DNA from: Bacteroidales bacterium
GTDB taxonomy: Bacteria > Bacteroidota > Bacteroidia > Bacteroidales > UBA7960
Reading direction: 5' to 3'
Assembly: GCA_003559735.1 (NCBI GenBank)
Contig: PWKN01000084.1
Coordinates: 1-59,201, forward strand
Length of the DNA: 59,201 nt
The position numbers and the translations under genes were made by a program. Below, in pieces: positions 8,573 to 54,125 of this stretch (position 1 is the stretch's first letter; the number at the start of each line of letters is the position of its first letter). Under the pieces are notes generated by a model. That model searched no databases. It saw only the letters and a list, made by a program, of their open reading frames with translations, and was not told the DNA's origin.

Positions 8573-9853
8573 TTATCGCCCTACAACCACTTCCATCATG
8601 CCATCCTCCTGCAGGTAATCACTGGCGGTTTCCATGATTGTTTCCGGTGTAATGGTTTTGAGTGTTTCCAGGTAATCGTCGTAATGCGTAAAATCAAGTC
8701 CGAACACCAGCAACTCCTTAAACCTGTCGCCCTGTGCAAACGGCCCGTCAAAGGAGCGGAGGAAGCTGCCCGACAGGTAGTTTTTCAGACTTTCCAGTTC
8801 ATCGTGTGTGGCAGGGATGGAACGCAGGTTTCTGAGTTCGCTGTATATTTCCCCAAGAGCCTGTTGCGCAACCTCTGTACCAACCTGTGTGGCGATGAAA
8901 AAATAGCCGCTGCGCATCAGCGAAATGATGCCCGAATTGATGCCATAGGTAAATCCTTTATCCTGGCGGATGTTTTGCATCAGTCGTGATCCAAAATATC
9001 CACCCAGGAGGGCGTTTGTGATCTTAAACCGGTGATAGGCCGGGTGGGTCCGGTTAAAAAGCTGCTTGCCGATGCGTAGCGCCGACTGCAGGGAGTCGGG
9101 CATTTCGAGTTTCACCTTCCGGCTACCGGACGTCAGCATCGAATAAGCGGGAAGCTGCTTTTCCTGTTCTGACGCTACCGGCCTGGTGTTGTCAAATGCC
9201 TTTGCTGTCTTTTTTTCCATATCACGCGGCACACGACCCGACACAATGCAAAAAGCATTTCCGGGAATGAACCAGCGCCGGTGAAACTCCTGCAGGTCTG
9301 TCCGCCTCACCTTGTTAAAATCGTCAGTTTTTACCCTGTACCCATATGGGTGCTGTTCACCATAAACCAGTTCTTTAAAATACGACCGTGCAAGGTGCTG
9401 CACTTTCTTTTGGTTTATGATATGTATTTGTTGCCGGTTCTTCAGAAAAGAATGCATTTCATCTTCAGGGAATACCGGATCGTTTATGATGTCTGCAAAC
9501 AGTTCGAGTACCGGATCAAGGTGTTTGTTCAGCACGAACAGGGCAACCGACACGATATCATTTTGTGCCTCCACTTGCAGATGTGCACCGTAATAGTCGA
9601 GCAGTCCGTTGATCTCCCGGCGGTTTTTTGTCCCGGTTCCGCCACGCAGCAGATGGGAAACAGCAAACGATACAAGTGGTCTGGACTCGAAGTAGCTGCC
9701 TGCATAAAACACCATTTCAACCTTCACGAAGTCCTCCGTACCCCCTTCCATTAAGTATAACGGCATCCCGTTCCCCAGCCGGATCATCTTTGGGTGGATA
9801 TAGGGGATTGTTGTGGTTGTGCTGGTTGCCGGCGGACTCTTTCTGTCAATCAT
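8573..9853 (-). CDS. M16 family metallopeptidase-like protein, non-catalytic subunit
   Basis: An M16 (pitrilysin/insulysin clan) protein. The ORF track starts it at 10045, but its first ~60 residues overlap the upstream M16 gene by 131 nt and look non-homologous. The ATG at 9853 (MIDRKSPP) leaves a 61-nt gap and puts the conserved LGNGMPLYLMEGG beta-strand near the N-terminus; the ATG at 9934 is a second option with a 20-nt overlap. The zinc motif HxxEH is absent: the position reads AVSHLLRGGT. The C-terminal M16 half is intact (RQDKGFTYGI). Together with the upstream gene this matches the active/inactive two-gene arrangement of processing-peptidase-like M16 proteins. Confidence 0.88.
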   Translation of the reverse strand: MIDRKSPPATSTTTTIPYIHPKMIRLGNGMPLYLMEGGTEDFVKVEMVFYAGSYFESRPLVSFAVSHLLRGGTGTKNRREINGLLDYYGAHLQVEAQNDIVSVALFVLNKHLDPVLELFADIINDPVFPEDEMHSFLKNRQQIHIINQKKVQHLARSYFKELVYGEQHPYGYRVKTDDFNKVRRTDLQEFHRRWFIPGNAFCIVSGRVPRDMEKKTAKAFDNTRPVASEQEKQLPAYSMLTSGSRKVKLEMPDSLQSALRIGKQLFNRTHPAYHRFKITNALLGGYFGSRLMQNIRQDKGFTYGINSGIISLMRSGYFFIATQVGTEVAQQALGEIYSELRNLRSIPATHDELESLKNYLSGSFLRSFDGPFAQGDRFKELLVFGLDFTHYDDYLETLKTITPETIMETASDYLQEDGMMEVVVGR

Positions 9854-9914
9854 TTCTTTGTTTGCGCTATTAGGAATATTTATGTTAGTGTGTTCGACTT
9901 TGTTTGAAAACCTG

Positions 9915-11168
9915 TCAGGTACCGGAATTGCCATAGTGCAATACCGACATGTTTTCACGCCTGAATATGCTGCAGGCAACCTGTTTGATCTCTTCTGCCG
10001 TAACACGGTCATAGACTGCCGTTTGTTCATTGTATAAGGCAGCATCGCCTTGCAGCTCGTAATATGCCAGGTTCATGGCCTTGGCCATCACGTTGCTGTC
10101 AGAAAATGTACGGGCGGCCTCCACCCTGTTTTTTACTTTTTGTAATTCTTTGCCAAGCACCCTGTTTATTGTAAGATCAGCGGCTTCCTTGCAAAGCATG
10201 TCCTCTGCCCCGGCAGGGTCTGTTCCATGATGAGGCTTCCCTGTAATAACAAAGAGTCCGGGATCAATATTCCCCGTTATATATGCATTTACCTCACTGA
10301 ACACTTTCCGGTCGTACAGAAGTCTCTCAGGAAGTCGCGCCGACTCACCGTTTGAAAGGATATCACTGATCAGGTCAGCGGCATGGAAGTCCTTATGAGA
10401 CCTGGCGCACATATGAAATGCCATGAATATCTGGTGTTGGGGGACATCCCTGTTCACAGTGAGGCGTTTTTCTGATTGCTGTGCTGGTTCAGCGGGGAGC
10501 TGCCGCTGAAGAACCTTGCCCGGCAGAATGTCTCCAAACCATTTTTCTGCAAGGGCAAACACTTTATCTGCTTCCACGTTGCCTGCTACAGACAAAATTG
10601 CGTTTGCAGGCTGGTAATACATGCTGAAAAACCGCTTCACCTCATCGAGACTGGCATCCCTGATATGAGCGACCTCCCGGCCAATGGTTGCCCAACGGTA
10701 GGGGTGTACTGAATAAGCCAGCTGCCTCAGCAGCAGCCAGGCATCGCCATAGGGCTGGTTCAGGTAAGACTGCCGGAACTCTTCCGTTACCACATTTTTT
10801 TGAGTGTCCAGAATTTTATCTGAGAAATCGAGTCCGGTCATCCGGTCTGATTCCAGCCAGAAAGCGGTTTCAAGATTCCGTGCAGGCAGGTTCAGGTAAT
10901 AATTGGTTATGTCGTTGGTAGTAAACGCATTGTTTTCACCTCCTGCAAGTTGCAGGGCATAATCGAAACGGGGGATGTTCGCAGAACCCTCAAACATCAG
11001 GTGTTCAAACAGGTGGGCAAAGCCGGTCCTGTCAGGATGCTCGTCACGCGCCCCCACGTCATAGAGCACATTTACCGCTGCCATGGGGGTTGTCTGGTCG
11101 CGATGCACAACAACCCGCAAACCATTTTTAAGACGGTGTCTGTCGAAAGAGATCATGCTTCTGTTCAT
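9915..11168 (-). CDS. M16 family zinc metallopeptidase, catalytic subunit
   Basis: A 417-residue M16 peptidase with the inverted zinc motif HLFEH at residues 52-56 and the downstream Glu in NVVTEEFRQ, so the zinc site is complete. No signal peptide is visible, which suggests a cytoplasmic peptide- or presequence-degrading enzyme. It precedes the non-catalytic partner (gap of 61 nt or small overlap depending on that gene's start). Alternative start at residue 5 (11156). Substrate is unknown. Confidence 0.94.
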   Translation of the reverse strand: MNRSMISFDRHRLKNGLRVVVHRDQTTPMAAVNVLYDVGARDEHPDRTGFAHLFEHLMFEGSANIPRFDYALQLAGGENNAFTTNDITNYYLNLPARNLETAFWLESDRMTGLDFSDKILDTQKNVVTEEFRQSYLNQPYGDAWLLLRQLAYSVHPYRWATIGREVAHIRDASLDEVKRFFSMYYQPANAILSVAGNVEADKVFALAEKWFGDILPGKVLQRQLPAEPAQQSEKRLTVNRDVPQHQIFMAFHMCARSHKDFHAADLISDILSNGESARLPERLLYDRKVFSEVNAYITGNIDPGLFVITGKPHHGTDPAGAEDMLCKEAADLTINRVLGKELQKVKNRVEAARTFSDSNVMAKAMNLAYYELQGDAALYNEQTAVYDRVTAEEIKQVACSIFRRENMSVLHYGNSGT

Positions 11169-41187: not shown

Positions 41188-43209
41188 TCAATCATCCCGG
41201 TTCGACAGAAATTGCGGCTCAGTTCCTGAGTAATCGATGCGATACAATAAATGATCGATTTCAACTGACAATATACCTTCATTCAACCTGAGTTGCGGAC
41301 CATCATATACAGGCCACAACCCTTCCAATTGTACGCGGCTTCCGTTGACCGACCATTCGGGTATTTTCCCATAACCCTCACCGCAAGGCCATTCGGGTTG
41401 TTTCCACTCTGCAGCAAAAGTGACAACCTGTTGTTCAACAGGCCCGTATCCCCAGTCATAGGTCGCTTCTGTAAAGCATCCATCTGTGTTGAATGTTACA
41501 GACAGACTGTCTCCTGTAACAGATACATAGCCAACCTGGTATGTTTCAGATAATGCGGATCTGTCAATACGTCGTTCACTGAGACAGGTTGCAACAAAGT
41601 CATCAAATCCATTGTGCTCTGATGCATCCGCCACCTCCAGTATGAATCCGCATGCATTTCCTGGCTCAGCCTGATCAACAAGAATTTTCCTGTTGTCCAG
41701 ATACAAGGGCTGGTCAGTAACCTCACTGCCATTGGATAAATAATATATGGCAAGATAAACGTTCCCCAGATCCGCAAAACAGGCATTGTCATGAAACACC
41801 AGGTTGGCAGATCCGGGCAGGTTGATAAAGCTTTTGTTTTCTGCTATGATATTGCCGGCAAAATTGACCACGTTCGGCTTGTCATCACCCGGGAACCTCA
41901 ATGAAAAATCTCTTTGCCAGTCAAGCTTCCACTGGTCAACAATACTGCTAACCTTCCTGATCAGCTCACCCGCATTGGAAGGGGTACGTGTGACCTGTGC
42001 CAGAACATTTTTGTGTTGCGCAAACTGTGTCCATGGGTTTGCGGTACCCCCGGACCACACCTCATGAAACCGTCCGTTACCGGAAACCATCACCGGATGG
42101 TCATCGTCTGTCCTGGAAACCAGTTTCCAGTTAACGATCTGATAGGTAGAACCAGTCCAGCCACCGTAAGGACTGACTGCCGTACCCAGAGTGAAATTGT
42201 TGTGTACATAATAGAATTGCCTTACAAACGATTGCTCTTCAAACAAATAAGAAGGCTTGCTCCCTGTGGTCCATGAAGGTTTATCAAATTGCTTTTTCGC
42301 CAGTCTTACTATGGCTTTATTCGGAAAATAATTGCTTGTAACGGCATGCATTGACTGGATGTATTCTCCACCGGTACGGGTAAAGGGCAGGCTGTCACTT
42401 TGGTTTCCAAACCATAGCCAGCAAAGGTATTCGGTTGCAGAACTGTATTCATCCCGCACGCCCCTGCCTCTTTTCTCACTGCCTCCGTACGCCCCCCAGC
42501 TGTAATGCAAAGCCGATTCAGCTGCGTAATAATCGAGCACTGCGCGTGCCATGTCACGAACTTCCTGATCATTTGCAAAATCATACAGGTTCAGCCACCC
42601 AATGATATGATACGTCTGGTATATGCTTGAGTTCCACTCCCCTGTCCCTTTACGGTAAATCATGGAAGACCATTGCTGTATCCATTCTTTCATAAGGGCA
42701 AGTTTTTCTGCGGCTTCAGGAAAAAGGTCAGGGTATTCGAGGGCATGCTGGGCATAAAGATAACCCGATGTTCGTTCCATGTTGATATGGTTTTCTGTCC
42801 CTTCAGATGTCCATGGGTTATGGCTGTCAGTACGTTCGAACACTTTTTCCAGGAGCAGGATCCGGTTTTTGTAAATGGCAGGGGCATCAGGATACAAGGA
42901 CATCAGCCTTGCCATCCCTGCCAGGGTAAAATGAAATGGACTGCGGTGCTTTAATTGATCGATCCATGAGTTGGCAAGGGAGTCACGAATCCCATATTTT
43001 TCGAACCTGGCCATCACTTTTGGCCAGTAGAATTTTTCCGGATCTGGAATATTCATAGAGGGCAGAACATAATGATCCGCCACGAAGTCTGTCAAAACAG
43101 AGGCCCTTAACAGGAATCCCGGATCGCGCTCATTGACGGAGCGGGTCTCCAAGGATGACAGGCAGGAAATTAAATGAATACAAATGGATAATATGATGAT
43201 TCTATGCAT
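41188..43209 (-). CDS. Secreted alpha/alpha-toroid polysaccharide-lyase-like protein (family unassigned)
   Basis: A 673-residue exported protein (signal IIILSICIHLISC). The N-terminal ~370 residues are helix-rich with Trp/Tyr/Asn/His-rich motifs such as SEGTENH, SSIYQTYH, RDEYSSATEY and YVHNNFTLG, and the C-terminal ~300 residues are beta-rich. This is the layout of alpha/alpha-toroid plus beta-sandwich polysaccharide lyases (PL8-like group). I do not recognise the exact family. Next to GH88 and upstream of the isomerase it fits the enzyme that makes unsaturated uronyl ends. Could also be a hydrolase of similar fold. Confidence 0.7.
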   Translation of the reverse strand: MHRIIILSICIHLISCLSSLETRSVNERDPGFLLRASVLTDFVADHYVLPSMNIPDPEKFYWPKVMARFEKYGIRDSLANSWIDQLKHRSPFHFTLAGMARLMSLYPDAPAIYKNRILLLEKVFERTDSHNPWTSEGTENHINMERTSGYLYAQHALEYPDLFPEAAEKLALMKEWIQQWSSMIYRKGTGEWNSSIYQTYHIIGWLNLYDFANDQEVRDMARAVLDYYAAESALHYSWGAYGGSEKRGRGVRDEYSSATEYLCWLWFGNQSDSLPFTRTGGEYIQSMHAVTSNYFPNKAIVRLAKKQFDKPSWTTGSKPSYLFEEQSFVRQFYYVHNNFTLGTAVSPYGGWTGSTYQIVNWKLVSRTDDDHPVMVSGNGRFHEVWSGGTANPWTQFAQHKNVLAQVTRTPSNAGELIRKVSSIVDQWKLDWQRDFSLRFPGDDKPNVVNFAGNIIAENKSFINLPGSANLVFHDNACFADLGNVYLAIYYLSNGSEVTDQPLYLDNRKILVDQAEPGNACGFILEVADASEHNGFDDFVATCLSERRIDRSALSETYQVGYVSVTGDSLSVTFNTDGCFTEATYDWGYGPVEQQVVTFAAEWKQPEWPCGEGYGKIPEWSVNGSRVQLEGLWPVYDGPQLRLNEGILSVEIDHLLYRIDYSGTEPQFLSNRDD

Positions 43210-43326
43210 GGAATTTGTTTTAATTGTTACTTGCCGGGAGAGGAATACGTTTTATGAAATCGTGGTGCGGACCATGCCCCGTATGTTGTTCCTGATATAT
43301 CATGGGTCATATACGGCACCTCTAAA

Positions 43327-43359
43327 CAGAGGGCCGCCCGGTAAAAGGCAGCCCTTCTG
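43327..43359 (-). repeat. Imperfect hairpin similar to the terminator at 43519
   Basis: CAGAGGGCCGCC and GGCAGCCCTTCTG can pair with one mismatch and one bulge. It shares the GGGC-GCCC/GGCAGCCC core with the hairpin at 43519-43548. No good T-run follows on the minus strand, so a repeat element or leader structure is as likely as a terminator. Confidence 0.35.
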
Positions 43360-43518
43360 TTCTACAAAAACCAAAACCCAACACTATGTTAACTGAAAAG
43401 ATAGTTCATGATAGCAATTCAAAATTAAGCAAATATTCTAACCTTAACCGGTAGAATCGTCGCATTTTGTATGTATTTCTGTATCAGAATTGTTTTTTTT
43501 TACCTGAAATGGTGAAAT

Positions 43519-43548
43519 AAAGGGCTGCCCGGGTTCGGGCAGCCCTTT
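43519..43548 (-). terminator. Strong intrinsic terminator of the T9SS surface protein gene
   Basis: A perfect 13-bp stem (AAAGGGCTGCCCG / CGGGCAGCCCTTT) with a 4-nt loop, about 42 nt after the stop codon, followed on the minus strand by ATTTC. Confidence 0.85.
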
Positions 43549-43590
43549 CGCTTTATATTAACCAACACAAGGTATGAAAAAACATAATGA

Positions 43591-45654
43591 CTAATACTGA
43601 ACGATAAAGCGTTTCACAGAACGTTGCGTTTTGTCTTTCACCTCAATGAAATAGGATCCGGGATTCAAACCGGTTAGGTTGATCTCGTGAGAAACTCTTG
43701 AGGTATCCTTCGTTATGGTTTCAAACCCTACCACACGTCCGTACATATCAATCACCGTAATATATACATTGCCTGCATGGCTGCTTTCAAACTCAAGAGT
43801 GATCCTGTCCTTTGCCGGATTTGGGTAAAGATTCAGCATGTCCTCTGCAACTGAATGGTCAGGAACATCAACTGGATCACCGTGTGCAAGGATACCGATG
43901 GCATAATAACCGGTTTGGATGTTTTCCACCTCAAAATTCACAAGGAGTTCATCAACCATTGCCGTCACACCAAGATCTGTCCAGTTTTCATCAGCAGCAT
44001 CTTCCTTATACCACAATTTATATTCTGCACTGGGCTCAGATTCCAGTCCGGCAGCCTCAAAGTCAAAACCAACGGTCACATCTGCATCCGTTCCTGTGGT
44101 TTGCAGGTACCAGAACCGAGACCAAGATTTGCCATCGTTGTCATCATCGATTTCTGCACCGTTATGACCCGCAATCACAAAGTCACCATCTGCAGCAAAT
44201 CCATCGGCCGACAATTGCAGCGCCCCACCTGAGCCAAACAGGTGTGATTCACTTGAAGCACCGGCAATATCTTCAGTCTGGCCAACACCGATAATATCAT
44301 AAATATAATCGGTATGGGTATACATGAGGCCATTATCCAATTCAAGTCCGTATTTCGCAGCCAGGTAGTTCTTGACAAGTTTTGTCTGCGCATTGTTTAC
44401 ATCAGAGTTGAACATTACGATCTCAGCCACGTCTATGGGCTGGAAGCCTCCAATGATCACAGGGGAGTGAACACTCTGTACCGGTCTTGCATACGCCGCA
44501 CTGCTTTTCAATACCCCATCAGTGATAAAGGTTGCAAGTCCGTGGTTGCTGTTCAGGTTCACATTCACGATATAATAGTCCTCATCGTTGAATTCATCAA
44601 TGCTTTTCAGGAATATATCCCTGGCAATGACAAACTGCATTTTATTGGGATTGGCACCCCCGTCCATTTCAAGCACGTAAGCGGCTTGTGCGGGTTGGTT
44701 CCTGATATCCCTTTTCTGGAACAAGGCTGCAAAATCTCCGAACATCTGGTTGCGTTTTACAACCATGAAAATGGAAATACCTGCACCGCCATCGAGGTTA
44801 TCAGCATCGTCAACAACAAGAATCCTGTTGTCTCCTTCAGCACCTGCCTGGCTGCCAAAATGAACCACCGGCCAGTTATTTAGTCCGCCAGCTACAAAGC
44901 TTGGTGCTGGCTTCCAGTTCTCACCGGTATTTTCAATGTTGCTGTCCACCATCGACTCATCATTATGCGCATGGTTCTCATTTCCTGACATGTCACCCCA
45001 ATGGTGAACCTTGCCTCCGTCTTCCACATCGGTGATGTCATGTGCCCTCAGCCAGAGAGACAATTCCGGCTGGCCATCGCGTGAAAGGTCTGCAAAACCA
45101 ACTCCTCCAGGCCCAACACCCGGTGCCGGCATGGTCTGCACGACATCATAAAACGCTTCGACCACCTCCGTTTCAAACGTAAAATCATCGTTGTACGCCT
45201 GGGCACGTATCAGGGTTGGTTCGGTCAGGATCAGCGGTTCTTCATAGATAGCCGTTGGTGCTCCCCCGTCATCGGAATACCTGATCACAGATCCTTCAGG
45301 CTCCACCTCGATCGTGACCATCACGCTGCCCTGGTATTTTACCACTGGTGTCGGACTGAATTGTGGCAAGCCTACCGGTGTAACGTGATATGTTTTGGAT
45401 GTCACGATACTCGGCAGAAGGTCGTCGGCATAAGCAATTGCCCTGATGGTAAAAGATTTATTCTCTGACTCAGCTGTCAGTGTTATGGGGGTGTCACCAT
45501 CATAGGGGGTACCATCTTCTTCTGTCGGGTCATCACCGTTAATGGTATAATATATACTGGCACCAGCCAGTTGGTGTTGACAGCGATACATCAACCGAAC
45601 GTATGTGACGGTCATCCCTGGGTGCAAAAGCAACAGGTGCCACCTGTGGTTCAT
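43591..45654 (-). CDS. C-terminal part of frameshifted T9SS surface protein
   Basis: The homologous frame begins near 45570, just after the CTGGCTGG duplication; the upstream 28 residues of the track ORF are out-of-frame read-through. From there: a chitobiase/hexosaminidase C-terminal-like domain pair (IYYTINGDDPT, then SVMVTIEVEPEGSVIRYSD), a LamG-like/concanavalin-type domain (~230-470; LSLWLRAHDI, VVHFGSQAG), a beta-rich region and a Por secretion-system (T9SS type A) sorting domain at the end (NLYPNPAKDRI, GLNPGSYFI). It completes the protein encoded by 45539-48862. A functional full-length product would need the 4 bp removed or a programmed frameshift. Confidence 0.85.
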   Translation of the reverse strand: MNHRWHLLLLHPGMTVTYVRLMYRCQHQLAGASIYYTINGDDPTEEDGTPYDGDTPITLTAESENKSFTIRAIAYADDLLPSIVTSKTYHVTPVGLPQFSPTPVVKYQGSVMVTIEVEPEGSVIRYSDDGGAPTAIYEEPLILTEPTLIRAQAYNDDFTFETEVVEAFYDVVQTMPAPGVGPGGVGFADLSRDGQPELSLWLRAHDITDVEDGGKVHHWGDMSGNENHAHNDESMVDSNIENTGENWKPAPSFVAGGLNNWPVVHFGSQAGAEGDNRILVVDDADNLDGGAGISIFMVVKRNQMFGDFAALFQKRDIRNQPAQAAYVLEMDGGANPNKMQFVIARDIFLKSIDEFNDEDYYIVNVNLNSNHGLATFITDGVLKSSAAYARPVQSVHSPVIIGGFQPIDVAEIVMFNSDVNNAQTKLVKNYLAAKYGLELDNGLMYTHTDYIYDIIGVGQTEDIAGASSESHLFGSGGALQLSADGFAADGDFVIAGHNGAEIDDDNDGKSWSRFWYLQTTGTDADVTVGFDFEAAGLESEPSAEYKLWYKEDAADENWTDLGVTAMVDELLVNFEVENIQTGYYAIGILAHGDPVDVPDHSVAEDMLNLYPNPAKDRITLEFESSHAGNVYITVIDMYGRVVGFETITKDTSRVSHEINLTGLNPGSYFIEVKDKTQRSVKRFIVQY

Positions 45655-48600
45655 AGTTCAGGGTGAGATAGCTGCCCCTCCATTCCCTGCCTGACAACCA
45701 GCCGCGGTTACCCGGCGTAGGCTCCGCACCTTTGGCAACAAGGGTAACGTATTGCTTGCCGTCATCGATGGCTGCATTGATATAATCGGTAAAAGCAGGA
45801 CTCGACAGCATCATCCACCGGCCACCGCGCAGCAATGTGCCGGTCAGTAAAACATTACCACCAACAGCTGGCTTATTGTTCCAGGTGATCTCATATTCAT
45901 CCCAGTCGACATCCGATGCACCAAATACCTCAAAGTCCATCTCAGTGAAGTCGACAGGTGTTTCGTTATGGATGGCTCCATATACATTCAGTGAAGCGGA
46001 AACAGTCTCATCATAGGCCCCGGAAATATCGTACTTGAAAAAGATCCATTTTGAAGCCTCGTTTTCATCATCATTGATCAGGTGCTGATCAGCAAGATCG
46101 CCGAAGTTTGTATCTCTTTCCCCTTCAACCTGCGAAACATAGGCATCGGCAACCACTTCCATGGTTTGCACAGGAGGTGGAACGGTGTAATCAAAGATCA
46201 GGCTGGTCGCTTGCGGCCGCCATTCACGTCCGGCCATCCACAACCTGTCACCCGGGGTATTGTCTTTCCCTTTCAGAACGAAAGAGACGTGGGTCCGCCC
46301 TTCGCCTACTGCTTCATTGATGTAATGGGTAAGCAGGTCGCTTTCCCAGGTAACCGCCTGCCCGGCACCAAACCATGTCACATTCTCTTCTATTAATCTG
46401 ACGCCAGCGTCAGGTTTGTTTTCCCAGTTGATTTCCATTTCTTCCCATTCCTGATCTTCAACGGCAAATACATCCACAAAGAAATCCTCTCTTTGGGTAC
46501 CGGAGTCATGCTGGGCAATATATGCCGTCAACTTCACCGCACCAGCTGCGGCATCGGCCACCTCGCTGATATCAAACCTGAGGAAGGTTTCTTTGCTGGT
46601 GCCATCGTCGGCTCTTCTGATGCCCATATCGGCAGCGGCACCAAAATTCTCTGCAGGATCTTCCTCTTTCACAAAGGCATCAGCCACCACATAGATGGTA
46701 TCTGATTCGAGCGGACTGCGCAGGGTGAGTTCCAGTTGCGGACCCCAGTCACCGTCACCTTTGCCACCAATCCACTGCAGATCACCGCCATCACCGCTTT
46801 TGTATTCCAGTCCAAAAGCAACCTCGGCTTTTCCGAACAAAGTGTGGTCGTTGATGTAATTCACAAGGTTGTCGCCTACATTGTCATATACCAGTCTGGC
46901 TGAACTTTGCACCTTCTCGACAGTTGCCAGTTCACCTGAGCTCGATGGCTTGTTATTCCAGTTTGTTGTTGCACGGGAGAAATCAGTTCCTGCCCTGGTC
47001 AGCTTGATGACCATTGTTTTGTCAGCAGCCATTGACCCACGCGTAGAGAATCTGGCGTCTACAATTTCCATACCTGCAATATCACCAACATTGAATTTGA
47101 CAAAAGAAATGGTTTGTTCTTCTTCTGTCTTTCTAACGAGCAGGTTGCTGGCATGAAATGCTTCTGCAGTATTTTCAGGCTCATGCTCAAAAACGACTGC
47201 ATCATCAGAAGCAAGACTGTTGTACCCGTATTCAAGTACCAGTTCAAGCATGGGTCCCCAGGCACCATCACCCATACCGCCTATCCAGTTCAGGTCAGCG
47301 CCGTCACCATCTTTGAATTCAAGGCCAAACGAAACAACAGAGGCACCAGATGCCAGCTTCCCGTTGATGTAGTTGTTCAGTTCATTGCCGTTGGGCACGA
47401 AGGTCTTTCGACCCGAGTCACTATCATACAAAACTGTAGCCAACTCGCCCGATGTGTTTGGCTTATTGGTCCAGTTTGTAGTCTCCCTTGAAAAGTCATC
47501 CCCCGACCTGGTGAGCTTAACCGTCATGGTAGATCCCGAAGCCATTGATGACCGGGTTGAAAACTTAACGTCTCTGACCACACGCCCGGAGAAATTGCTG
47601 ATGTCGAACTGTACAAAGGAGATGGCCTGCGCGTCATCCTCCTTGCTGTAAACAAGCAGGTTCGAATTATGGAAAAAGCTTGCAGTCTCCTCAGGTTCGT
47701 CAGAAAAAGCAATGGCATCAGCAATGGCAAAAGCGGAAGTGTTTTCAGTGTCGGGTACAATATTCAGTATGGGACCCCAGGCACCATCACCTCGTCCGCC
47801 AATCCAATTGCCCGCATCCAGATCACCTCCGTCATGCTGCATGCCAAACACGATCACTTCCCTGCCTTCAGCCAGCACCTCATTGATGTAATTGACGATG
47901 CCATTGTTTACAGCCTCATAGGGCATCCTGTCAGAACTCGTGGTATACTCTTTGGCTCCGATGCGGCCCGACATCCCCGGCTTATTGTTCCAGTTTGTGC
48001 TGGTCCGGCTGATCTCGGTTCCGGAAACACGCCTTAACTGAACCTTATTGACCGTTTCAGGCTTGCTGGTACCACGGGTTGAAAACTCAGCAGAAGCAAC
48101 TTGCTTATAGGCCATCCCGGGGAGTTCAAACTTGACGAAAGAGACTGCTTCAGTAGCGTCATCGATACGGGTTACCAACAAGTTGCCGGCATGGAAGTCT
48201 GCACCGGTTTTTTCAGGATCTTCCTTAAAAGCCACGGCATCATCGGCGGGATAGAAGGCCATGCCCCTGTCCAGTTCGATCATCAGCTCCGGACCCCAGG
48301 CACCATCGCCACGGCCACCAATCCAGTTAACTGCATCCAGGTCACCTTCTTTATATTGTATTGCAAAGGCAATTTCGGTCGACCCATTAATCAGCTCTTC
48401 GTTGATGTAATCAACCAGGCGGTTGCCCTCTGGCGTATAGGCTCTTCTCCCTGAATCAGTTGTGTACACCTTGGTTCCCAGTTCCTGTCCGGTCGAAGGT
48501 CTGTTCGACCAGTTGGTCGTATCCCGGTGGAAGGTCGTACCAGCCCTTCTCAACCGTATGATGGTCTCCGTATCAGGCTTGGCTGTCCCACGGGTAGAGA

Positions 48601-48862
48601 ACGAAGCATCGGTCACGACGCGGTTTGCAAAGGCACTGATGTCGAATTTGACATAGGAAAACACGTGCCCCTCTTCCGTCATATTGGCCAGAATATTGCT
48701 GTTGTGAAAGGCACTCGCAGTGGCCTCCGGATCAGCCTCAAACACGACGGCATCACCCGAAGCATACATGGTGACTGCCTGCGCATGCACGTTCGATCCG
48801 AACAGCAGCAGCATAACAGCAGTCACGATTAACCCTTTAAAAGTAAATGTTCCATTTTTCAT
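45539..48862 (-). CDS. N-terminal part of frameshifted repeat-rich surface protein
   Basis: A 1107-residue ORF with a signal peptide (FKGLIVTAVMLLLFGSNVHAQ) and six consecutive ~170-residue DNRLRE/CBM96-like beta-sandwich units. Units 1-4 (about 32-197, 202-369, 377-545, 548-714) are closely related, each with TTNWxNKP, YIN and WIGGxGDGxWGP; units 5-6 (722-892, 901-1071) are the classical type. The ORF ends 36 residues later, after VDVSLSTP, where a chitobiase C-like domain should begin. The rest is in another frame at 43591-45570. T9SS-exported adhesin or glycan-binding protein. Confidence 0.85.
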   Translation of the reverse strand: MKNGTFTFKGLIVTAVMLLLFGSNVHAQAVTMYASGDAVVFEADPEATASAFHNSNILANMTEEGHVFSYVKFDISAFANRVVTDASFSTRGTAKPDTETIIRLRRAGTTFHRDTTNWSNRPSTGQELGTKVYTTDSGRRAYTPEGNRLVDYINEELINGSTEIAFAIQYKEGDLDAVNWIGGRGDGAWGPELMIELDRGMAFYPADDAVAFKEDPEKTGADFHAGNLLVTRIDDATEAVSFVKFELPGMAYKQVASAEFSTRGTSKPETVNKVQLRRVSGTEISRTSTNWNNKPGMSGRIGAKEYTTSSDRMPYEAVNNGIVNYINEVLAEGREVIVFGMQHDGGDLDAGNWIGGRGDGAWGPILNIVPDTENTSAFAIADAIAFSDEPEETASFFHNSNLLVYSKEDDAQAISFVQFDISNFSGRVVRDVKFSTRSSMASGSTMTVKLTRSGDDFSRETTNWTNKPNTSGELATVLYDSDSGRKTFVPNGNELNNYINGKLASGASVVSFGLEFKDGDGADLNWIGGMGDGAWGPMLELVLEYGYNSLASDDAVVFEHEPENTAEAFHASNLLVRKTEEEQTISFVKFNVGDIAGMEIVDARFSTRGSMAADKTMVIKLTRAGTDFSRATTNWNNKPSSSGELATVEKVQSSARLVYDNVGDNLVNYINDHTLFGKAEVAFGLEYKSGDGGDLQWIGGKGDGDWGPQLELTLRSPLESDTIYVVADAFVKEEDPAENFGAAADMGIRRADDGTSKETFLRFDISEVADAAAGAVKLTAYIAQHDSGTQREDFFVDVFAVEDQEWEEMEINWENKPDAGVRLIEENVTWFGAGQAVTWESDLLTHYINEAVGEGRTHVSFVLKGKDNTPGDRLWMAGREWRPQATSLIFDYTVPPPVQTMEVVADAYVSQVEGERDTNFGDLADQHLINDDENEASKWIFFKYDISGAYDETVSASLNVYGAIHNETPVDFTEMDFEVFGASDVDWDEYEITWNNKPAVGGNVLLTGTLLRGGRWMMLSSPAFTDYINAAIDDGKQYVTLVAKGAEPTPGNRGWLSGREWRGSYLTLNYEPQVAPVAFAPRDDRHIRSVDVSLSTPTGWCQYILYH
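45563..45570. other. CCAG tandem duplication causing a frameshift
   Basis: On the minus strand ACTGGCTGGTGCC contains CTGG twice in a row. Reading through without one CTGG gives STPTGASIYYTING, the normal start of a chitobiase C-like domain, and the total length 43591-48862 minus 4 is divisible by 3 (1756 codons). So the duplication alone explains the split. Confidence 0.85.
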
Positions 48863-49150
48863 AAGCGGTAAGATTTTTGGTTTGGTAATGTTAATCTAAA
48901 AAAGAAAAAATCGTTGAATTTTTAGCCAATCAAATGTAAATCCAAATGTTCCTTACCACGTGTAAATCTGTCCCGAAAAATGTAGACATTCGTCCCTTAA
49001 AATATTCCCGCAACACAGAAGGCATTGTCCGGTTCCCATTGGGGTCATTTCATTGTGAGATAATTTTTACGGACTATTGGGACGAACGTACAAATGGATA
49101 AAGGCCCGCTTATAGTATATTTGTTCTGTTCATAAAAATCCTGATACAGC
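48863..49150. promoter_or_regulatory. Divergent region with operator-like repeats upstream of SusC
   Basis: 288 nt between the T9SS protein (minus) and SusC (plus). TGTAAATC occurs at 48935 and 48961; TTCGTCCC (48989-48996) and GGGACGAA (49079-49086) form an inverted pair, each accompanied by a TGTA half. A -7 box TATATTTG is at 49116-49123, 27 nt before the ATG, with no -33 TTTG, as for an activator-dependent promoter. Confidence 0.55.
49116..49123 (+). promoter_or_regulatory. -7 element of the SusC/SusD operon
   Basis: TATATTTG matches TAnnTTTG, 27 nt upstream of the SusC ATG. The -33 position reads AATG, not TTTG, so an activator bound to the repeats upstream is likely needed. Confidence 0.6.
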
Positions 49151-52100
49151 ATGAGACGATCATTTATCACACTTGCATTGATCACATTTTTCAGTCATTA
49201 TCTGCTTGCACAGCAGCTTACCGTAGAGGGTACAGTCCTTCATTTCGAGGGGAATCTACCCATTGTGGGTGCCAGTATCATCGAAAAAGGTACAAGCAGA
49301 GGCACCACGACAAACAGTGAGGGCCGCTTTACCCTGACCGTTCAGGAAGGCGCAGTGCTGCAAATCAGTTACGTTGGCATGTTCACCGAGGAGGTCCCTG
49401 TGGTGGATGAAGATCCAATAACTGTGATTATGATACCCACCGTTGAAGAGCTTGATGAGATCGTAGTGATCGGTTATGGCACACGAAAACGACGCGACAT
49501 TATCGGGTCGGTTTCATCAGTGAGCGGAGAGGATCTTCACGCCCTGCCTTCTGCTTCTATAACCTCAGCGCTCCAGGGACGGGCTGCCGGGGTTCAGGTT
49601 ACCAATACCAGTGGGGTGCCGGGGTCACAGGTAAACATCAGGATCAGGGGTGAAAGCTCCATCAGCATCAACAACGCTCCTTTGTGGATCATTGACGGGA
49701 TGCCTGTCTATTCAGGCGGTGGACTGGAGCGTACGATTGGCTCCACCAGCCAGGACCCCATGTCGATGTTGAACCTGAGCGACATTGAATCCATTGAGGT
49801 GCTGAAAGATGCAGCGGCCACATCAATATATGGCTCACGTGGGTCAAACGGTGTGATCCTTGTAACCACCAAGTCAGGCAGACGGGATGCAGGAGGTACG
49901 AATGTGAATTATTCAAGTGGCTTCACCACCCTGAACAGGAAGCCCGAAGACATCGGTTTTACCAACACGGAAGAGTGGTTCAGCCTGGTTGACCGGGCAA
50001 GGGCCAACTCTGGTTTGCCTCATTTTGATCCTTTCGATATCATCAAGTTCTACCGTGACGAACCGGTGGCCATGCTCAGCCGCGAACAAGCAGAAAAGAT
50101 CAATACCGACTGGTTTGATCAGATATTGCGGACAGGCTCATACCATGACCTGAATGTGTCGAGTTCAAGGGGTGGTGAGATGGGCTCCTTCTACCTCTCA
50201 CTCAACTACAATGATACCGAAAGCATCCTCAAGGAGAATTACTTCAAACGTTTCAGCACACGTGCCAACTTTGACTTTAATCCCGTCGACAACCTGACAG
50301 TAGGCTCCAGGCTTAATTTTTCATTTACCGAGAATACCCGTGTTGCACAGCAGGTTGGCGGAGCCATCGGAGCTGGTGGCGGGGGTGCGAATGCAGGCTG
50401 GGGTAATGCAAACAGGGTTTCCCTCCCCTGGTTTCCCATTTATAACCCAAGCCACCCGAGCGGCTACTGGAACCCCATGTCGGGGGCGAACCTGGTAGCC
50501 AGTGTTGACCCCAACAACCACCACGATGTGGTTGAACAATACAGGGGACTTGGCAGCATTTTTCTTGATTACAACGTGCCGTTCATCACAGGGTTGAACA
50601 TCAGGAGTGAAGCCGCAGTTGATTTCATCCAGAACAATAGCGTATACTGGGTTACAGAATACTTGCGTGAACTTGGATCCTATGCGGCCGACAGGGCTGT
50701 GACCAGGAAGAGCTTCAACTATAATATATATGGAAACTTAAACCGTGATTTTGGTGATGGCCATAACATACAGGCGACATTCGGTGCCGAATGGCAGACC
50801 GTGAGCAGGTATACCAGGAATATGTCTGGCCAGAACCTGTCCGGCACCTACAAACAACTCGGCAACCCGGCCGATTACCTGGAAATTTTTTCCGGACTTA
50901 ATGAGGAGGAATACCTGTTGGGATACATTGGCAGACTGGATTATAAATTCAGAGACAAGTATTATGCCGGTGTGAGCCTGCGTCGTGACGGCTCCTCAAA
51001 GTTCCTGCCCGAAAGGCGCTGGGAGATCTTTCCTGCCTATTCACTGGGCTGGATCATCTCCGATGAGGATTTTTTTACCCCCCTGTGGGTCGAAATGCTG
51101 AAGCTCAGGGGCAGCTATGGGCGGACAGGCAACAAAGACATCAATCCGAACTTGTTCCAGACCAACTTCACCAACAACAGGGCACACAGGTACGGAGCGC
51201 CAACACTTATTCCGGGTGGGTCGCGCATTTCCAACCTTGGCACGCCCACGCTGACATGGGAAACGACCAACAGTTATGACGTGGGCATTGACTTCGAGAT
51301 CTTTCGTAGCAGGATCAGTGGCTCGCTTGCATATTACCTCCAGGATGTGGACGACCTGCTGTTGTTCTCAATGCTGCCCCAGTCATCGGGTGTTAACGGT
51401 GTCTGGAACAACATTGGGAACATGCGCAATCACGGACTGGAGTTCTCTCTCTATTCTACCAATGTGCACAGACCGGAAAGTGCTTTTCGCTGGACAACAG
51501 ATTTTAATTTCAGCACCAACAACAATGAGGTGCTGAGCCTGACGCCCATGCTTGACCGTGATGGCAGGGGGGTCGAAAGCGGGGGAACCATATCGAGAAC
51601 CGGCGGCAGACTATGGGCATGGTATATGGCAGAGTTTGCCGGAGTGGATCCGGAAAAAGGGGTGGATATGATATATGAAATAGACTATGCACACTGGCAG
51701 GCAACCGGCGAAACAATAAAAACAGGGAGACTGATACCCGCCACCCAAACCAACCTGGCCCGCAACAGGATGATCCTTGAAGACAAAACACGTTTGCCAC
51801 GCTTCACAGGAGGAATGACCAACAGAATTGAATACAGGGGTTTTGACCTGAATATCCTGATCACCTTTTCTGGCGGACATTATATATATGACTATGAAGA
51901 AAAACGCACCACCATGGTTCAGTACGGGCAGGTGCTGCTCAGAAAAGATATGCTGGAGAACACGTGGGAGAATCCTGGTGACAATGCGAAATACCCGATG
52001 CTTACATGGGATTCGCAATATCCCTGGGGTTGGGATATCGACAAACCCAATCCTGAGTGGACCGGTGATCCTGACCACCCCCTTGCCACCGGTTACTGGG

Positions 52101-52387
52101 TTGGAGGTCCTGATAGCGGCATGACATACGGATACAACAATGAAACCAATTCGTATTCCAAATACCTGTATAAAGGGGACTACCTTCGCGTGCAAAACAT
52201 TGAGCTGGGTTACCGTTTCCCCACAACGACCACAACAAGGCTGGGGTTACAGGGATTGAGGATCTATGGGTCTGCATCAAATATGTTCTTGTGGACCAGG
52301 GAGTATACAGGCTGGGATCCTGAAACCGGTGGGGGCGTGCTGCCACCACTCCGTGCATTTAATATCGGTGTATCAGCTCAATTCTGA
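49151..52387 (+). CDS. SusC/RagA-type TonB-linked outer membrane transporter
   Basis: A 1078-residue SusC-family transporter that imports oligosaccharides with TonB energy. The signal (ITFFSHYLLAQ) is followed by a carboxypeptidase-regulatory-like domain (~30-105), the SusC signature IVVIGYGTRKRRDI, plug motifs LWIIDGMPV and DAAATSIYGSRGSNGVILVTTKSG-like, and a large barrel. It is directly followed by SusD (115 nt), defining a PUL core. No anti-sigma or STN domain is seen, so it is not a FecA/HTCS-type sensor receptor. Confidence 0.97.
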   Translation: MRRSFITLALITFFSHYLLAQQLTVEGTVLHFEGNLPIVGASIIEKGTSRGTTTNSEGRFTLTVQEGAVLQISYVGMFTEEVPVVDEDPITVIMIPTVEELDEIVVIGYGTRKRRDIIGSVSSVSGEDLHALPSASITSALQGRAAGVQVTNTSGVPGSQVNIRIRGESSISINNAPLWIIDGMPVYSGGGLERTIGSTSQDPMSMLNLSDIESIEVLKDAAATSIYGSRGSNGVILVTTKSGRRDAGGTNVNYSSGFTTLNRKPEDIGFTNTEEWFSLVDRARANSGLPHFDPFDIIKFYRDEPVAMLSREQAEKINTDWFDQILRTGSYHDLNVSSSRGGEMGSFYLSLNYNDTESILKENYFKRFSTRANFDFNPVDNLTVGSRLNFSFTENTRVAQQVGGAIGAGGGGANAGWGNANRVSLPWFPIYNPSHPSGYWNPMSGANLVASVDPNNHHDVVEQYRGLGSIFLDYNVPFITGLNIRSEAAVDFIQNNSVYWVTEYLRELGSYAADRAVTRKSFNYNIYGNLNRDFGDGHNIQATFGAEWQTVSRYTRNMSGQNLSGTYKQLGNPADYLEIFSGLNEEEYLLGYIGRLDYKFRDKYYAGVSLRRDGSSKFLPERRWEIFPAYSLGWIISDEDFFTPLWVEMLKLRGSYGRTGNKDINPNLFQTNFTNNRAHRYGAPTLIPGGSRISNLGTPTLTWETTNSYDVGIDFEIFRSRISGSLAYYLQDVDDLLLFSMLPQSSGVNGVWNNIGNMRNHGLEFSLYSTNVHRPESAFRWTTDFNFSTNNNEVLSLTPMLDRDGRGVESGGTISRTGGRLWAWYMAEFAGVDPEKGVDMIYEIDYAHWQATGETIKTGRLIPATQTNLARNRMILEDKTRLPRFTGGMTNRIEYRGFDLNILITFSGGHYIYDYEEKRTTMVQYGQVLLRKDMLENTWENPGDNAKYPMLTWDSQYPWGWDIDKPNPEWTGDPDHPLATGYWVGGPDSGMTYGYNNETNSYSKYLYKGDYLRVQNIELGYRFPTTTTTRLGLQGLRIYGSASNMFLWTREYTGWDPETGGGVLPPLRAFNIGVSAQF

Positions 52388-52502
52388 TGAACAAACCACT
52401 GGCATCAAAAACAAATGGGCAAAAACCATCCATATGAGAAATAAATGATCGCACAGCAGGCGCTGTGTGAACCAAAAACATAACCATCATAAACACAATC
52501 AT

Positions 52503-54125
52503 ATGAACAACATTTTGATCAAAATCACCGGATTCTTATTCCTGATGACTGGCATAAGTGCCTGTGATCATGATGATTTTTTTGAATTGACCAATCCGCC
52601 TGAATTCCCGTGGTTAAACATCACGGAGTTTGAACGGGCGGCTGTATCGCCCTATAATTATTCATTTTACTCTGACTGGGGAGGCCATTTTTTCATGGGC
52701 GACCGGGTGATCATGGACGGACTGACCGACATCATTTACCATATTCCGGGATCATCGGCCAACTATCCTGTCAACGAGGTATATAACCGGCAAACCAATG
52801 TGGAGATCCAAAGGGCCAATGTGTCATTTGCGGCCGGCTATCGTTCCATAGGCTTGATCAATGCAGCCCTGGATTTTTATTACGGGGAGGATGAGAACCC
52901 GTTCCCCCAGGCAAGTGCTGCCGACATTCAGCACAACCTGAAGCGTATTGTCGGTGAGTTGCATTTTATGCGCGCTTATGCCTACTTCCACCATACCCTG
53001 AGACATTGTCCCGCCCCGGGCGATCCGGAATTTGAGACCGAAAAGATCCTGCCGCTCCGATTGGATTTTACAGATGCTGAAGCTGCTTTGAATGCAGAAT
53101 TCGTCACCACAAGTGCCATCTATGATGTCATCCTTGAAGACCTGAATATTGCCATTGACATGCTGCCCGAAGGTTTTATTGACGGACTGCATCACCCGTC
53201 ATACCAATACGGCCGGGCAAACAGGTTTGTGGCAAGGGCCATATTAAGCAGGGTATTGTTCCGTCTTGGCAAATGGGACGAGGCGCTGCAACAGTTAAAC
53301 ATCATCATTGATGAGAGCGGCGACCGGTTCAGCCTTGATCAGGACCCGATCGAGGCTTTCAACCGCAGCGATGCATCAAAGGGCAATGAAGTGATCTGGA
53401 AGGCATTGTATTACGACAATGAAATGGGGCATTCACCCGCTGACGCTACCCTTTTTACCTTTCTTGATTACCGTGCCATTAATGGCGGGCATGGTGAATA
53501 CTTCCGAAGATCAACCTGGCATACCTATTCAATGACCAACAGTGTAGCCAAACAGTTCGGCTGGATGGACGAGGAACTGAACGAAACCGATGCCGCCAGA
53601 AGGGATAAACGCTACCAGCAAATATACCACCGCCTGGAAGGAAACAGGGGTAACCTCCTTGATGACCCGGGTGTATATGAGCAACAGTATACCAACGTAA
53701 AAGAACCGCGGATCTGGAATGACAGGTATTTTCGTGCGCCCGACGGTCAATACAGCAATGTGCCTGTAGTGCGGCTGGCAGAGATGTACCTGACACGCTC
53801 CATCATCAGGTATGAAAATGGCAACCACCAAGGTGCTGCAGATGACCTGAACATGGTACGCCGGCGGGCATGGGATGCAGATGTTGCCGGGATTGAATAT
53901 GATGCTTCTGAGGAGTTTGTCACCACTGCAACCATTACCAGCGACATGATCCACCTGGAAAGGATGAAAGAGCTTAGTTTCGAAGGGGATCGACTCTATT
54001 ACCTCCAGGCATTACGACTTCCGCTCCCGCCGGGTGACAGGGAGGGCATTGCGGAGATTCCTTTCCCGCATACCGGACTGTACTGGCCGATCCCGCAACG
54101 CGAACAGGACTTCAGACTGAATTAG
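52503..54125 (+). CDS. SusD/RagB-family surface glycan-binding lipoprotein
   Basis: The ATG at 52503 gives the lipoprotein signal (FLFLMTGISAC); the track start at 52467 adds 12 residues. A ~540-residue SusD-like protein that binds glycans at the surface and lids the SusC barrel. The alpha-helical TPR scaffold is visible in RANVSFAAGYRSIG, LMRAYAYFHH-like and RMKELSFEGDRLYYLQ segments. The residues after Cys are acidic (CDHDDF), fitting a surface lipoprotein export signal. The end overlaps the convergent FISUMP gene by 4 nt. Confidence 0.97.
   Translation: MNNILIKITGFLFLMTGISACDHDDFFELTNPPEFPWLNITEFERAAVSPYNYSFYSDWGGHFFMGDRVIMDGLTDIIYHIPGSSANYPVNEVYNRQTNVEIQRANVSFAAGYRSIGLINAALDFYYGEDENPFPQASAADIQHNLKRIVGELHFMRAYAYFHHTLRHCPAPGDPEFETEKILPLRLDFTDAEAALNAEFVTTSAIYDVILEDLNIAIDMLPEGFIDGLHHPSYQYGRANRFVARAILSRVLFRLGKWDEALQQLNIIIDESGDRFSLDQDPIEAFNRSDASKGNEVIWKALYYDNEMGHSPADATLFTFLDYRAINGGHGEYFRRSTWHTYSMTNSVAKQFGWMDEELNETDAARRDKRYQQIYHRLEGNRGNLLDDPGVYEQQYTNVKEPRIWNDRYFRAPDGQYSNVPVVRLAEMYLTRSIIRYENGNHQGAADDLNMVRRRAWDADVAGIEYDASEEFVTTATITSDMIHLERMKELSFEGDRLYYLQALRLPLPPGDREGIAEIPFPHTGLYWPIPQREQDFRLN

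Follow-up and report, generated by a model that had tools for sequence, protein, structure and literature searches.

SSR phase variation, as in Neisseria, breaks reading frames at short tandem repeats in surface-protein genes, and a published screen for phase-variable repeats set its minimum at 3 copies where the unit is 4 nt long and at 6 for homopolymers (PMC5084427). Perfecting of an imperfect inverted repeat is the signature of quasipalindrome template switching, a process described in E. coli (PMC7202029). The gene considered here belongs to the CBM96/DNRLRE family, whose founder has been described (PMC9971899), and lies in a stretch of 59,201 nt (the window) that spans positions 1 to 59,201 of contig PWKN01000084.1 of the Bacteroidales bacterium (UBA7960) assembly GCA_003559735.1, a fragmented draft of 295 contigs.

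Within this window, a gene for a T9SS surface protein is divided between two ORFs, here called A and B (Table 1), which occupy different frames and overlap by 116 nt, with ORF B open in the +1 frame. ORF A runs into a stop codon shortly past the junction (45539-45541), and the listed start of ORF B (45654) sits in sequence that codes in the other frame, so a native start is missing from ORF B, as is a signal peptide. Across the ORF A part (45539-48862), Pfam family PF24517 matched six CBM96 stretches, and no catalytic domain was recognised in this T9SS protein. The preliminary description had credited both halves with good codon use and intact domains, including a signal at one end and a sorting domain at the other. 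A codon-preference score trained on the window's other genes bore out the first point, being equally positive on the two sides of the site (0.265 and 0.271 per codon), with the favoured frame changing from A to B within ~100 nt of it. The CBM96 repeats and the sorting domain, the latter matched by both Pfam and TIGR04183, were likewise recovered, while the signal-like start was judged by eye; it occurs only in ORF A and the sorting domain only in ORF B, although the orthologues carry both ends in a single frame. The break lies where a domain begins, not in a linker. In the sequence as deposited, the loss of frame is genuine.

Table 1. Features of the split gene, its junction and its surroundings, with the orthologues recovered
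Feature	Location	Strand	Description
ORF A	45539..48862	-	1107 aa; six CBM96/DNRLRE domains after a signal-like N-terminus; frame lost close to 3′ end
ORF B	43591..45654	-	687 aa; chitobiase/Fn3-associated domains, Pfam-less region, T9SS type A sorting domain
T9SS sorting domain (Por_Secre_tail)	~43600-43830		in ORF B
4-bp tandem pair of CTGG	45563..45570	-	CTGGCTGG; exactly where the DNRLRE-repeat ORF loses frame
TGG with single extra base	45567..45569	-	one T or one G, placements indistinguishable; from orthologue alignment
Perfect 6-bp inverted repeat	45556..45571	-	ACTGGC-TGGT-GCCAGT, 4-nt loop; complete only with the extra base
673-aa protein	41188..43209	-	downstream of the split gene
SusC/RagA-SusD pair	49151..54125	+	divergent; same glycan-utilisation-type locus as the split gene
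Orthologue L022	SKQJ01000354.1		Bacteroidales MAG, isolate CSSed162cmA_420; 1749 aa
Orthologue L023	G033:C302		same family; 1760 aa
Orthologue L024	G030:C96		same family; 1760 aa

We searched for orthologues in 118 genomes, comprising the source genome and relatives, then in the 47 family genomes, and lastly by scanning the species genome collection. Three were found: two belong to genomes from this family and the third to a Bacteroidales MAG whose isolate prefix, 'CSSed', presumably stands for soda-lake sediment; the gene was present in 0 of the 20 congeners searched. Identity to the split gene is 61-67% at the protein level and 63-66% at the nucleotide level, and every orthologue is a single open frame of 1749-1760 aa. 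The preliminary description had named homologues that are always split at this point as an outcome that would count against its reading; among the related genomes, 0/3 are split.

In the nucleotide alignment, each of the three orthologues has a single gap column at the junction, so that the window carries exactly one extra base, an indel of +1 and thus not a multiple of three. The minus strand around 45570 reads TCAACACCAACTGGCTGGTGCCAGTATATA, and the same sequence, LSTPTAGASIYYT, results whether the T or one G of the affected triplet is dropped. This 1-nt repair yields PTAGAS, as in two of the three orthologues, which read STPTAGASIYYT or TTPTAGASIYYT (STPTAGAS or TTPTAGAS); the third reads STTTANATIYYT (STTTANAT). 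The preliminary description had instead seen a 4-bp tandem duplication. The octamer CTGGCTGG does lie at the frame break, at 45570-45563, and removal of one CTGG does reopen a frame of 1755 aa (5268 nt, divisible by 3), but the product reads STPT-GAS (STPT-GASIYYT), one residue short of the orthologues, where a normal chitobiase C-like domain start had been proposed. When motif spacing was compared among the loci fetched, the spacing longer by one residue recurred in all recovered chitobiase/Fn3-associated motifs, including the second such domain of the same protein.

The tandem pair is also unexceptional as a sequence feature. Four-bp tandem pairs number 234 across the whole window against 231 expected, which is chance level; the octamer itself occurs four times with both strands summed, and 2.7% of computed random single insertions in the gene create such a pair. 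We found no second copy of the junction in the source genome. A single +1 insertion accounts for the sequence with one change, from which the 4-bp pair follows; as far as these sequences can tell, the pair is a coincidental by-product of a 1-nt insertion. A 4-bp duplication would, strictly, still be possible if the direct ancestor lacked the alanine codon, ancestral codons being drawn here from three orthologues only, at 63-66% nucleotide identity. Normally, then, this is very probably a single gene of ~1756 aa, encoding a T9SS-exported multi-CBM96 surface protein, that has been interrupted by a single-nucleotide insertion.

The two halves are similarly conserved relative to the orthologues (identity 0.61-0.67 for the N-half and 0.62-0.66 for the C-half), and alignment with all three revealed no further stops or frameshifts in either. 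Equal conservation and the lack of a second lesion indicate that the change is recent, whether it arose as a mutation or as an artefact. The view in the preliminary description that one gene has been split is supported, with a recent lesion as the cause, and both a recent change and an assembly error are retained as candidates. Granting the +1 insertion, we favour a real, recent null allele, which probably arose as a spontaneous frameshift in the sampled population. Such an allele would give a truncated protein without the sorting domain, together with a distal part that has the sorting domain but no signal peptide. Because the export signal and the sorting domain lie in different frames, T9SS surface display should fail, as inferred from the domain layout. 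The lesion is an ordinary single-gene frameshift.

The alternative that survives best is an error of consensus or assembly, in which the extra base does not exist in the organism or a minority strain has been collapsed into the draft; we regard this as a substantial possibility, if a less likely one than a null allele. The fragmented state of the draft and the intactness of all three orthologues are compatible with it, as is the presence of GGC within an inverted repeat, both being cited as Illumina sequence-specific error contexts (PMC4787001). The same study measured Illumina insertion errors at ~3e-6 per base, a rate that speaks against an error here if the platform was Illumina, and the site contains no homopolymer. 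To gauge the background, we compared sampled stretches of the source genome (506 kb, of which 140 kb were homologue-covered) with a congener and other relatives. Across the ~140 kb of homologue-covered DNA, this was the sole frameshift found; the consensus is therefore not generally indel-prone, and the lesion is isolated.

If the null allele is real, the extra base may have originated by template switching at a short quasipalindrome, since it perfects an imperfect inverted repeat. Without it, the left arm of the repeat is one base short (taking the inferred ancestral base), and the hairpin is absent from all three orthologues. As single-stranded DNA, the hairpin has a predicted energy of -6.3 kcal/mol (z -1.87). 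A perfect inverted repeat of this kind arises from 1.7% of random insertions in the gene, so the perfect repeat alone does not establish the mechanism. We offer this origin as a plausible suggestion, one made post hoc from short arms and a hairpin that is not conserved.

The remaining explanations make the break functional. The preliminary description had raised slipped-strand phase variation, in which the CTGG tract toggles the surface protein, and a two-unit repeat at the frame break of a surface-protein gene, where losing one unit would reopen the frame, invites that reading. Two units nevertheless fall short of the published cut-off of >=3 for 4-nt units, the GG at the site is far below the homopolymer cut-off of six (PMC5084427), and no tandem array lies in or near the gene. 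The repeat is also missing from 3/3 orthologues, losing a unit would make this turn one residue shorter than in any of the orthologues, and a share of random +1 insertions yields a tandem pair anyway, which together make phase variation very unlikely. True gene fission, with the halves now separate functional genes, is about as improbable: both frames are open and well conserved, yet the distal ORF lacks a native start and a signal peptide although its T9SS sorting domain depends on export, none of the three orthologues is split, and the break lies at a domain start. Programmed +1 ribosomal frameshifting, which would make two products from one mRNA and had likewise been suggested, could draw on the long overlap of open frames and the coding signal kept in both halves, but we give it hardly any credence, as all three orthologues use one frame with no conserved frame change, no prfB-type stop-codon slip site lies around the junction, and the hairpin completed by the extra base is missing from the orthologues. 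Scarcely conceivable, finally, is a reversible switch in which hairpin template switching or CTGG-copy slippage turns surface display of the glycan-binding protein on and off within the population; if true, it would amount to contingency switching without a conventional repeat tract.

The split gene's 673-aa downstream neighbour matched nothing in Pfam, NCBIfam or PDB sequences, and its structure prediction had a mean pLDDT of 40.7, too low for a fold search; by impression only, it may be an alpha-toroid polysaccharide lyase. This neighbour is strongly conserved, with 59-61% identity across the loci found, and adjoins the CBM96 protein in all three orthologous loci. The two proteins occur together here and in two genomes of another genus, and in 0/20 congeners. 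Because the neighbour accompanies the gene in each locus and the 20 searched congeners lack the gene, the locus appears to be a patchily distributed accessory one. The CBM96 T9SS protein and its neighbour also adjoin the divergent SusC/SusD pair, and this arrangement (41188-54125) suggests an accessory, possibly transferred, glycan-utilisation locus. We rejected mis-binning of the contig, as its IMP dehydrogenase most resembles those of congeners (82-89% identity, ranking top, versus 76-82% to other genera). A second candidate split gene, the overlapping ORFs at 8573-10045 and 9915-11168, was also rejected, each having its own M16 peptidase domain pair. The window contains no Rfam matches.

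Annotation should merge the two ORFs into a single frameshifted gene. More broadly, a 1-nt indel can produce a short tandem pair where a frame breaks, a case that only orthologue alignment distinguishes from a duplication, and an 8-bp motif is insufficient for cataloguing a locus as phase-variable. As a member of the CBM96/DNRLRE family, the protein shares the domain of the founder (PMC9971899) in six stretches; here, by comparison, they form part of a T9SS cargo with several domains, none of them recognised as catalytic, and its binding is putative. The locus resembles SSR phase variation (PMC5084427) in that a surface-protein gene loses frame at a short tandem repeat, and differs in having two unconserved units and an underlying change of 1 nt rather than a repeat unit. 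With quasipalindrome template switching (the Ripley model, the E. coli thyA hotspot and lacZ reporters; PMC7202029) it shares a small perfecting indel, whereas here the arms are only 6 bp and the process is deduced in retrospect from a single case. Spontaneous +1 frameshift pseudogenes and null alleles of bacterial surface proteins combine the same small insertion with an otherwise intact gene and intact orthologues, and the present allele shows no difference from them.
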